From NCBI GenBank assembly GCA_020722185.1, contig DYLH01000012.1, positions 1 through 47,010 on the forward strand: 47,010 nucleotides of DNA, read 5' to 3'. Source of the DNA: Candidatus Avelusimicrobium gallicola. GTDB lineage: Bacteria; Elusimicrobiota; Elusimicrobia; Elusimicrobiales; UBA9959. The number at the start of each line of letters is the position of its first letter. The stretch's first letter is position 1. Shown piece after piece: positions 3,913 to 36,280 of this stretch. Made by a program: the position numbers and the translations under genes. A model generated the notes under the pieces. That model was not told where the DNA came from, searched no databases, and worked only from the letters and a program-made list of their open reading frames with translations.

Positions 3913-4403
3913 AATGTCAGGAATGTAAAAAAGAAAATTTTACCGTTTTACTCAAAGTGCTTTCCAATGGTAGGATAAAAACACTTAAACTTTGCGATAC
4001 TTGCGCCAAAAAAAAAGGATACTCATACGAAGATGTTCCACCTTTGCCTGAGGATTATGCCGAAAAAATAATACTTCATGAATATGTGCCATCGAAGAAA
4101 AAGAAGCTCAAATGTCTACACTGCGGCACACTTTATATAGATTTTTCTAAAAACGGCAAGTTGGGATGTCCGCTTTGTTATTTTTATTTTGAAAAAGAAT
4201 TAAAAAATATTTTTGAGAAAATGGGGCTTGAGAATTACAGAGGAAAAATTGGACATAATTCTCTCATAGGTGAAGGAAAATTGAATAAAAAGAGAATTGA
4301 ATCTCTGAGAGAGAAGATAAGAATATGCCTGCAATTTAATGATTTTAAAACTGCGAAAAAACTTCAAGAAGAAATTTCAAAAATAGAAAATGAGAAATGT
4401 TGA
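3909..4403 (+). CDS. mcsA: McsA-like protein, zinc-binding with UVR motif
   Basis: This 164-residue protein has four CxxC pairs: CQEC at the start, CDTC, CLHC and CPLC. They can hold two zinc ions as in Firmicutes McsA. The C-terminus (about 128-160) is a helical UVR motif (FNDFKTAKKLQEEI) shared with UvrB/UvrC. McsA activates the protein-arginine kinase McsB and links it to Clp proteolysis. Here it overlaps the lolD stop by 4 bases and the mcsB-like gene by 14. All zinc ligands look intact, in contrast to its partner. No ctsR or clpC lies alongside, unlike the classical operon. Confidence 0.85.
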   Translation: MKCQECKKENFTVLLKVLSNGRIKTLKLCDTCAKKKGYSYEDVPPLPEDYAEKIILHEYVPSKKKKLKCLHCGTLYIDFSKNGKLGCPLCYFYFEKELKNIFEKMGLENYRGKIGHNSLIGEGKLNKKRIESLREKIRICLQFNDFKTAKKLQEEISKIENEKC

Positions 4404-32657: not shown

Positions 32658-32852
32658 AAATCATACCCTTATATTAAGCACAAGAGAAAGGCTAGGTTTC
32701 AAATATCTCATTTATACCACCACAATACTATTATAAAAAATTGCTTCAAACCAAAACAATGATAATGATTTAAAATGATTTAATGAATCTTGAAAGATTG
32801 TGTTCATATTCATATAATTTCTATCGGTATAAATTTTTGCGGTGGAGGAAAA

Positions 32853-34199
32853 TTGAAATATTACTTTGTAGGCATAGCTGGTTTTGGTATGAGCGCTCTG
32901 GCTCAGATAGCCAGAGGACGCGGCGATGAAGTGTATGGTTCAGATAGAAATTTTGATTTGGGCAAAGCTCTTGACCTCAAAACAAAGTTTGAGAATATTG
33001 GGATAAAAGTGTGCCCTCAGGATGGTTCTCAATTGAACTCTGATTTTAACGCCGCTATTTTTTCAACAGCAGTTGAAGAAAATAATCCAGAATTTAAAAG
33101 AGCAAAAGAATTGGGCATAAAAATAATTCACAGGGCTGATTTTTTAGCCTCATATGTGAATAACTCAAAGACTATCGCCGTTTCAGGCACTAGCGGAAAA
33201 TCTACAGTTACAGCGATGATATATCACATGATGGAAAAGGCGGGACTTTCTCCTTCTCTAATCACCGGCGGGGCTCTTCGCTCCCTTATGGAAAAAGGTG
33301 GAATAGGAAATTCTGTATGTGGAAAAAGTAATTGGCTTGTGATAGAAGCTGATGAATCAGACGGAACTCTTGTCAAATACAAACCATATGCGGGAGTGAT
33401 ACTTAATATCTCAAAAGATCACAAAGAAATTTCTCAGCTCATAGATATATTTTCCACTTTTGCCAGCTCTTCTGACTATCTATTTGTAAATTATGACGAT
33501 ATTTTACTTAGAGAACTTGAAGGAGAGAAAAATTATTTTGGCATAAATTGCCCGTATACAAAAGTTTCTGATATAAGCTTGCATTTCAATGGAAGCTCAT
33601 TTATTTTAAATGGCCAAAATTTTGAACTGCCCCTTGCGGGTATGCACAATATATCCAATTTTGTTGCGGCAGCAAGCGTTTGCAATAAAGCTGTTGGGAT
33701 ATCTCTTAGAGATATGGCAGAATATATCAAAAGTTTCAAAGGCGTTTATAGACGCTTTAATATAATGGGCGAAAAAAATGGAATCACAGTAATAGATGAT
33801 TTTGCCCATAATCCCGCAAAAGTTCAAGCGGCCATCTCAGCAGCTTTGATTGATGTAAAAGGAAAGCTTATATCGGTGTATCAGCCTCATGGTTTTGCTC
33901 CTACCAGACTTTTGAAAAATGAGATGATAGAAAGTTTTGTAAAAAGTATGAGAGAAAATGATATTTTATTGATTCCAGAGATTTACTATGTTGGGGGGAC
34001 AGTGAACAAAGACATATCTTCAAAGGATATAGTGGAAGCTGTTTCTAAAAAAGGCAGAAATGCTTTCTACTTTGAAAAAAGATCTGATATCATCCCTGCC
34101 ATAAAAAAGATGGTCTCAAGTGGCGACAGGGTGATAGTCATGGGCGCCAGAGATCTCAGTCTTCATTCATTTGCAACTGAAATAATGGAAGCTTTGTGA
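32853..34199 (+). CDS. Mur ligase family protein, MurC/Mpl-like
   Basis: I take the TTG at 32853, eight bases after a GGAGGA site, because the protein then opens at the family core (KYYFVGIAGFGMSALAQIA); a longer reading from 32790 adds an unlike, cysteine-containing N-terminus. The 448-residue product has the three Mur domains. The P-loop is GTSGKST (112-118) where MurC has GTHGKT. The ADESDGT and DDFAHNPAKV motifs and a C-terminal VYQPHGFAPTRL with VIVMGARDL are kept. MurC adds L-Ala to UDP-MurNAc, and Mpl recycles tripeptide. Which one it is cannot be decided here. No other mur gene is adjacent. Confidence 0.78.
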   Translation: MKYYFVGIAGFGMSALAQIARGRGDEVYGSDRNFDLGKALDLKTKFENIGIKVCPQDGSQLNSDFNAAIFSTAVEENNPEFKRAKELGIKIIHRADFLASYVNNSKTIAVSGTSGKSTVTAMIYHMMEKAGLSPSLITGGALRSLMEKGGIGNSVCGKSNWLVIEADESDGTLVKYKPYAGVILNISKDHKEISQLIDIFSTFASSSDYLFVNYDDILLRELEGEKNYFGINCPYTKVSDISLHFNGSSFILNGQNFELPLAGMHNISNFVAAASVCNKAVGISLRDMAEYIKSFKGVYRRFNIMGEKNGITVIDDFAHNPAKVQAAISAALIDVKGKLISVYQPHGFAPTRLLKNEMIESFVKSMRENDILLIPEIYYVGGTVNKDISSKDIVEAVSKKGRNAFYFEKRSDIIPAIKKMVSSGDRVIVMGARDLSLHSFATEIMEAL

Positions 34200-34783
34200 A
34201 AGAATTGAGATATCATAAACAAATCATAATTACAGGCTTTGTATACAAGGCGCAGAGAAAACTTTCTCATTCAAAGGTAGCTGTTCTTGGATCTGGCAGA
34301 ATAGTCGTAGCGGCTCTGACTTATCTTTCTGGCAAACCTTATGTGTTTCCTGCTGTCTAGAGAAGAGATGCTCAATTAGCCTTGTTGGATCCTCTGCCTG
34401 TTCCCTGTCTTAAATGTATTTTCAGCTCAGATCTTTATGATCTAGGAAATTGTTCTGATTATGTAATTACTGGCTCTGTCGCTGGATCGCCAGTTTGTCT
34501 GTCTGCTTTAAAGACTGTTGGATACCTGAGTGGACTAAAAAAAGAAAAAAATGCCCTGCGTTCAATACAAGATATCAAGAGGCCAAGCGTGACTTTTCAT
34601 TTCTTTCTTCTCTTAAAAAGGTTACTTTAAATACTCCCTCTTTCTCTTGAAGAACTTGATATGGCTACTTCTTTTCTGAACAAACATAGCGAAATAAAAC
34701 TTGTATGTGAGAGAAGAATCAAATCTTCAATTGCTTTTTCACGACTTAAATCCATGGTTTTTTTAGAGCGAAAAAATCTTTAA
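34196..34783 (+). pseudogene. Decayed MoeB/ThiF-type E1 enzyme fused to a rhodanese domain
   Basis: A single frame of 195 codons is interrupted by TAG (34358-34360) and TAA (34628-34630). The first piece from GTG at 34196 begins ELRYHKQIIITGF and KVAVLGSG, matching the RYxRQI start and nucleotide loop of ThiF/MoeB, though the loop is GSGRIV instead of GxGGLG. The middle piece has PCLKCIF, corresponding to the CxxC zinc site, followed by a GSVAGSPVCLSALKTVGYL helix like GVxGxxxxLQALEA. The last piece (LVCERRIKSSIAFSRLK) resembles a rhodanese active-site loop, as in MoeZ-type fusions. About 100-150 residues with the catalytic cysteine region are missing between the first two pieces. It directly precedes a MoaD-like gene. 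Confidence 0.72.
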
Positions 34784-34805
34784 AATAAAATGCTAAAATA
34801 TAATT

Positions 34806-35081
34806 ATGGCAAGGGTAACTGTGTCAGTTTACTCCACTTTAAGGGATAAGCTTAGTTTTTCTAGCAAAGAGTTTAAAGGAAAAAATCTTGGAGAAGTTAT
34901 AAAAGACCTTTGCTCAATGAAAAAAGGCATAAGGAAAATACTGCTTGAAGAATATGAACTTGTTAAAAACTATTTTGTTTTAACTCTCAATTCAGAAATA
35001 ATAGACACATCTAAACTTGAAAAAACAAAAGTGAAAGATGGGGACATATTTCATATATCCCCACCAGTCAGCATAGGATAG
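34806..35081 (+). CDS. MoaD/ThiS-family ubiquitin-like protein with altered C-terminus
   Basis: This 91-residue beta-grasp protein looks like a small sulfur carrier: a VYSTLRDK strand, a NLGEVIKDL helix, VKDGDIFHISPPVSIG at the end. Family members end in GG, where the last glycine is adenylated and thiolated. Here the end is SIG, so the penultimate glycine is Ile. No ribosome site precedes the ATG; a TAAAAT (34794-34799) ends six bases upstream, which would suit a leaderless transcript. With its E1 partner broken, it is probably non-functional or repurposed. Flavodiiron gene follows after 8 bases. Confidence 0.75.
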   Translation: MARVTVSVYSTLRDKLSFSSKEFKGKNLGEVIKDLCSMKKGIRKILLEEYELVKNYFVLTLNSEIIDTSKLEKTKVKDGDIFHISPPVSIG

Positions 35082-35089
35082 GAGGACAA

Positions 35090-36280
35090 ATGAAGCCAGT
35101 GGAAATAAATAAAGGAGTTTACTCGATTAGAATTAATCATTTTAACAGAAAGTTTTTTGACTCCCTAATTCCATTGCCAGATGGCACAAGTTACAATGCT
35201 TATCTGGTCAAAGGATCTACTTATACAGCTTTAATAGATACAGCAGATCCAGAAAAGAAAGAGGTTTTCCTTGATTATCTTTCAAAAGTCGAAAAGATAG
35301 ATTATATTGTCAGCCATCATGCCGAACAGGATCATTCTGGACTAATCCCAGAAGTTCTTGCCAGATATCCCAAAGCCATAGTTTTGACTAATGCCAAATG
35401 CAAGGAATTGTTGATTTCTCATCTCCACATAGGAGAAGAAAAAATCAGAGTTATAAATGACCACGACAAACTTGATCTCGGTGGAAAGACTCTAGAATTT
35501 ATTTTCACTCCTTGGGTGCATTGGCCTGAAACCTTTTCAACATATCTCATAGAAGACAGAATACTTTTCCCTTGCGATTTTTTTGGATCTCATATGGCTA
35601 CAGATGAGTTGATTGCTGATTCTCAAGTCATATATGAGCCGATGAAGAGATATTACGCTGAGATAATGATGCCTTTTAGAAACAATATAAAGACTAATCT
35701 TGAAAAGCTAAAAAAATACGAAATAGATCTGATTTGCCCAAGTCATGGCCCCATACACAAGGATGTGAAATTTGCCATAAAATGCTATAGTGAATGGGCT
35801 CTGGCTGAGCCAAAAAATAAGGTTCTTTTGCTCTATGTCTCTATGCATGGCTCGACATTTGTCCTTGTAAATCGTCTCATCAGCAGACTTCAAGAACACG
35901 GCATAGAAATAGAAAAACTAAATCTTGAGGATGCAGATATAGGTAGAGTGGCAATGGCTATGGTGGATGCCGCAACGATAGTTTTGGCCACTCCAACGGT
36001 TCTTGCAGGTCCTCATCCCAAAGCTATATACGCGGCTTATCTCGCCTCTTTATTGAGGCCTAAAACGAAATTTTTAGCTGTGCTTTACTCCTATGGCTGG
36101 GGAGGAAAAACAGTGGAGTTTTTAAGCAATGTGCTTTCCTGTCTTAAAGCTCAGATTGTAGGACAGGTTGGAGTTAAAGGTTTACCTACTGAAAGCGATC
36201 TTAAATTGATTGATGAATTGGCAACATCTATTTCGGAAAAGCATCAAACCCTTCTCAATACTCAGGCAGTATTGAAATAG
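35090..36280 (+). CDS. Flavodiiron protein (FprA type)
   Basis: This 396-residue enzyme has a metallo-beta-lactamase-like diiron domain (1-250) and a C-terminal flavodoxin domain. All iron ligands are visible: H77, E79, D81, H82 in SHHAEQDHSG, H144 in PWVHWPE, D163 in PCDFFG and H219 in CPSHGP. The FMN loop is SMHGSTF. Such proteins reduce O2 to water or NO to N2O using a rubredoxin or similar donor. A GAGGA site lies before the ATG. It protects anaerobes. No rubredoxin gene is adjacent. Confidence 0.95.
   Translation: MKPVEINKGVYSIRINHFNRKFFDSLIPLPDGTSYNAYLVKGSTYTALIDTADPEKKEVFLDYLSKVEKIDYIVSHHAEQDHSGLIPEVLARYPKAIVLTNAKCKELLISHLHIGEEKIRVINDHDKLDLGGKTLEFIFTPWVHWPETFSTYLIEDRILFPCDFFGSHMATDELIADSQVIYEPMKRYYAEIMMPFRNNIKTNLEKLKKYEIDLICPSHGPIHKDVKFAIKCYSEWALAEPKNKVLLLYVSMHGSTFVLVNRLISRLQEHGIEIEKLNLEDADIGRVAMAMVDAATIVLATPTVLAGPHPKAIYAAYLASLLRPKTKFLAVLYSYGWGGKTVEFLSNVLSCLKAQIVGQVGVKGLPTESDLKLIDELATSISEKHQTLLNTQAVLK

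Follow-up and report, generated by a model that had tools for sequence, protein, structure and literature searches.

In MoeB-MoaD and MoeZ-CysO pairs, the C-terminus of the carrier is converted to a thiocarboxylate. By analogy, an intact E1/carrier pair of the kind considered here would be expected to make a thiocarboxylate on the C-terminus of its own carrier. The stretch of DNA analyzed in this work (hereafter the window) comprises 47,010 nucleotides of a draft genome of Candidatus Avelusimicrobium gallicola (G000; 1.6 Mb, 60 contigs, 92% complete) and holds a pair of this kind with both members altered. Two congeners, G001 and G002, were used for comparison, together with more distant relatives.

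A MoaD-like carrier with an altered C-terminus

An open frame at positions 34806–35081 (+) codes for a 91-residue MoaD/SAMP1/CysO-like beta-grasp sulfur-carrier protein ending in HISPPVSIG. Family profiles match it with scores below the curated cut-offs: TIGR01687 (MoaD family) at 37 bits (E 3.5e-9, cut-off 49.5), the SAMP1 profile at E 3.3e-6, and PF02597 at 22.2 bits (cut-off 22.5). The AlphaFold model is confident (pLDDT 88.8, pTM 0.79); it was built from an alignment of 36 relatives, which drives the good predicted fold. A Foldseek search with the model returned SAMP1, CysO, Urm1 and MoaD, with E about 1e-5 to SAMP1 and CysO. The beta-grasp fold and the family profile of a MoaD/ThiS-type carrier are therefore present, the latter with a sub-threshold score, and the C-terminal Gly-Gly of such carriers is replaced by Ile-Gly.

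The replaced dipeptide is encoded by ATA GGA at 35073–35078 (+), as revealed by comparison of codons and homologues. The last codons of the gene are AGC ATA GGA TAG, while the congeners have AGC GGC GG(A/T) TAG. A Gly-Gly end was found in all 15 other intact homologues of our alignment (A1) and in 35 further named homologues (L094–L128), and the tail of close intact relatives follows the pattern PP[VI][SA]GG throughout. The initial annotation, which read PPVSIG where the family has PPVSGG, is thus borne out, and the alignment of close relatives revealed no SIG-ended homologue. The change from GG to IG takes two base changes, both in one codon, so a single-base sequencing error cannot explain the SIG end. 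The activity of E. coli MoaD needs both terminal glycines (Schmitz et al. 2007, as cited in PMC4326299).

Three near-invariant residues outside the tail dipeptide are also altered in the window protein, T10S, G17S and F85S, the last located just before PP. These changes had been missed initially. Deviating tails were seen among more distant homologues. L129 (Elusimicrobia UBA5214, match 4001–4249) carries an extension after the diglycine, GGRLDVWLYR, and would need proteolytic processing. L131 (a Dehalococcoidia MoaD-like protein, match 4001–4270) likewise lacks Gly-Gly and ends in PPAMGR, as against PPAIGG in its relatives L132–L134.

The adjacent E1 is a pseudogene, and no second E1 was found

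Alignment by tblastn and a frameshift-aware procedure to the intact E1 genes found at the same place in G001 and G002 revealed that the region at about 34196–34765 (+) holds a MoeB/ThiF-type E1 pseudogene whose C-terminus is rhodanese-like. The remnant aligns to MoeB/MoeZ/UbaA-type E1 over the N-terminus, the middle part and the rhodanese-like tail, with 42–50% identity to congeners; unlike these enzymes it has no catalytic core, its frame is broken and it cannot work. The largest deletion, of ~82–94 codons, has its junction at 34330–34331 (+) in the alignment to the E1 of L095 and L094 and took the catalytic core, including the NLNRQ and DCSDNF.TR motifs. Two smaller deletions bring the total to three, ranging from about 12 to more than 80 codons; a TAG stop at 34358 and two frameshifts were also found, and the GAGGIGS loop has become GSGRIVV. 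At least six disabling changes are present in total, and neither nucleotide-binding nor catalytic motifs of a MoeB/ThiF E1 are intact. The initial description of this gene as broken is thereby confirmed.

A search with PF00899 across G000 gave no match anywhere in this 92% complete genome. Each congener contains exactly one ThiF-family match, the E1 adjoining the carrier, and no ThiS-family gene other than the carrier was found in G000, G001 or G002. Because there is a single ThiF-family and a single ThiS-family gene in each congener, the E1 and carrier were the sole such set of the genus as sampled. The search for a second MoaD/ThiS and E1 proposed in the initial annotation thus returned neither, and the adenylating partner of the window carrier is represented by the adjacent pseudogene. 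In the window, no known route remains for charging the carrier.

Genomic context and search for a client

Upstream of the pair lies a MurC-like Mur ligase (32790–34199, +), which is present in 14 of 16 relatives whose region was examined and is a conserved neighbor in most of the family. Its score with TIGR01082 (murC), 306 bits, is below the cut-off of 335.1. Downstream lies an intact flavodiiron protein (FDP) gene (35090–36280, +) with beta-lactamase-like and flavodoxin domains (PF19583/PF00258, NF008887). The AGGAGG ribosome site of the FDP gene overlaps the stop codon of the carrier.

Side-by-side comparison of upstream sequences revealed an AT-rich element, aaaatgctaaaatataatt, at 34787–34805 (+), which matches aaaatg[ac]tatcatatgat, a sequence conserved in intact relatives. 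It may be a promoter and is not a ribosome site; a promoter scan of the element gave no more sites than did shuffled sequences. The initial annotation was correct in that no ribosome site precedes the carrier ATG, but this is not evidence of decay. The site is also missing from the intact carrier genes of G001, G002 and G003, and an SD-like tetramer is missing from 19 of the 38 genes of the window; its absence is therefore uninformative, and we rejected it as a sign of decay.

A client of the carrier was sought by co-occurrence. MoaE (PF02391), the partner of the small subunit of molybdopterin synthase (MoaD proper), was found neither in G000 nor in any of the 24 relatives searched, while the same search matched in 11 of 14 control genomes. 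Aldehyde ferredoxin oxidoreductase (PF01314), expected with a MoaD of the tungsten (AOR) cofactor, was absent from G000, G001 and G002. No TtuA/Ncs6-type thiolase (TIGR00269), as would accompany a TtuB-type tRNA thiolation carrier, was matched in G000–G011, and no Mec/JAB hydrolase (PF14464), the partner of a CysO-type carrier, was found in G000–G009. The genus has no true ThiG; weak ThiG matches there are short, covering about 39 positions within longer frames. The search over MoaE, AOR, TtuA, ThiG and JAB accordingly gave no client in the genus. A literature search on Elusimicrobia with MoaD or flavodiiron proteins returned nothing relevant.

Repeated loss of the carrier gene in the family

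The carrier was detected in 32 of 59 family genomes, two of these copies (G023 and G060) being broken or stubs, and is missing from the other 27. Of the carrier loci examined, only about eight have an adjacent E1. Carriers without an adjoining E1 keep the GG end, and all their genomes except G018 have another ThiF-family gene, for example one for a ThiF family-2 or TcdA-like protein. In G018 (L014/L062; 86% complete) a GG-ended carrier is present and no ThiF-family gene was detected; either its E1 lies in the missing part of the genome, or here too loss is at an early stage.

Where no intact carrier is present, the MurC and FDP genes usually still adjoin, and remnants can lie between them. In G044 (L160) the first 18 residues are fused to FPPVSGG; in G060 (L170) and G014 (L178) the C-terminal 17–21 residues are left; the G023 (L093) copy has an internal deletion and a frameshift; G054 (L168) and G061 (L162) retain only a vestige of the PPxSGG end. 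From these remnants and absences it follows that the carrier gene is dispensable and has been repeatedly lost in the family. What the stubs mostly keep is the very last part of the gene, the FPPVSGG codons, directly before the FDP ribosome site. The order of decay differs: relatives lose the body first and the GG codons stay, while in the window the tail is changed and the body is still open.

The PPVSGG codons form a 7-bp GC hairpin (CCGCCGG-NNN-CCGGCGG) that persists in decayed copies. In G045 (L165) and G064 (L164), directly before the FDP start, the stem is CGCCCG/CGGGCG, which looks like a compensatory change. The hairpin may be an RNA element belonging to the flavodiiron gene, or it may be due to chance.

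Divergence and selection

Columns conserved at >=90% in the family were inspected for changes on the window branch. The carrier has 4 of 22 such columns changed, the FDP 4 of 154, MurC 10 of 145 and the E1 remnant 6 of 18. The excess in the carrier over its two neighbors (4/22 vs 14/299) gave a Fisher p of 0.027 (about 0.03), and the carrier did not differ from the dead E1 remnant (p 0.30). This excess may be taken as moderate evidence of relaxation, and only as moderate, because the counts are small and the intact but divergent G012/G020 clade also deviates (4–5 of 26 conserved columns).

The protein branch of the window relative to the mean of the congeners was 1.73 (1.17–2.50) for the E1 remnant, 1.55 (0.83–2.92) for the carrier and 1.16 (0.89–1.52) for MurC; the carrier amino-acid rate is thus not clearly raised. 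The dN/dS check proposed in the initial annotation was run with a codon model. An omega of 1 over the whole carrier branch was rejected, which shows constraint for most of the branch only. Synonymous changes are saturated, with the branch length at its bound, so the model cannot see a recent relaxation, date the decay or decide between readings. We therefore dropped dN/dS as a test of decay.

From the excess divergence of the E1, we estimate roughly 0.07–0.09 neutral changes per base since its death. In simulations, a neutral carrier gene would remain without a stop over that time with a probability of about 0.45–0.5. With indels added at the density of the E1, the chance of a frame without stop or frameshift, had the carrier been neutral as long as the E1, is ~0.1–0.25. 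The open carrier frame is, for this reason, weak evidence for retention.

Probable stepwise co-loss of the pair

We consider ordinary stepwise co-loss of the E1 and carrier, caught early, to be the best explanation of the locus, with a probability of roughly 0.75. Co-degeneration, raised as a possibility in the initial annotation, is favored because the diglycine is lost, the only E1 is decayed and loss is repeated across the family. In the ancestor, as in other members of the family, the E1 would have adenylated the C-terminal GG of the carrier, with the rhodanese-like part aiding thiocarboxylate formation. In the window lineage, deletions, frameshifts and a stop put the E1 out of action. In a cell with no other ThiF-family enzyme, the tail and the probable E1-docking residues would have been released from selection, and the carrier has acquired the GG to IG, F85S, T10S and G17S changes. 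The first break may have been in the E1 or in the tail. The frame would still be open owing to the little time elapsed and the shortness of the gene, possibly helped by carrier translation running into the FDP ribosome site. Counting against co-loss are the open frame, the good predicted fold, the carrier rate of 1.55, which is not clearly raised, the rejection of omega = 1, the GG-ended carrier without a ThiF-family gene in G018, and the deviation of G012/G020 at conserved columns.

Several of these observations would be expected if the carrier had been freed from E1 chemistry and retained as a beta-grasp protein that binds without being conjugated, its partner being, for instance, the FDP or a former client enzyme: the frame is open, the AlphaFold fold is good, 18 of the 22 conserved columns are kept, and the carrier adjoins the flavodiiron gene in most genomes. 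We regard this as unlikely. Of 24 genomes that lack an intact carrier, 22 have the FDP gene, and the carrier persists without an adjacent FDP gene in G008, G012, G018 and G020, so any partnership between them is not obligate. Some of the lost positions fall in the tail, and we saw no new conserved feature. The suggestion in the initial annotation of another role beside the flavodiiron protein finds no positive support, and it is quite improbable that a bacterial ubiquitin-like carrier has here outlived its E1, shed its diglycine and become a plain binding protein for the FDP or a former client enzyme.

The frame could instead be kept as a leader whose translation feeds the FDP ribosome site, with polar stops and frameshifts selected against and the protein itself functionless. 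The carrier stop codon overlaps AGGAGG, and decayed copies just upstream of the FDP gene most often retain the 3′ end; both observations are consistent with such a role, but many relatives have lost the frame altogether and keep the FDP gene with its own ribosome site, which makes this explanation an unlikely one. An assembly or sequencing error behind both the SIG end and the broken E1 is conceivable in a contig of a 60-contig draft but highly improbable, given two base changes in one tail codon, three deletions and two frameshifts in the E1 next to clean genes, and the raised protein divergence of the remnant.

Comparison with known systems

Under stepwise co-loss the locus is a snapshot of an E1 and ubiquitin-like carrier pair dying: the activator and the carrier tail are gone and the carrier body is readable. 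Within the family, intact pairs occur alongside carriers that have no neighboring E1, the half-dead pair described here, stubs and clean deletions, and so the order and tempo of loss could be traced. The data point to an uncharacterized, dispensable Elusimicrobiota carrier without a known client.

By structure the window carrier is close to H. volcanii SAMP1 (Foldseek TM 0.82) and M. tuberculosis CysO (0.81), and less so to E. coli MoaD (0.68). It shares the PP-x-S/A tail of the MoaD/ThiS/CysO/SAMP1/Urm1 family (PF02597, TIGR01687) and differs from it in having Ile-Gly in place of the terminal Gly-Gly and in scoring under the curated cut-offs. The Elusimicrobiota murC-(E1)-carrier-flavodiiron cluster, which occurs in intact form in AS27yjCOA_52 and bin104, has the same gene order and upstream element as the window, but there the E1 is intact and the carrier is GG-ended.
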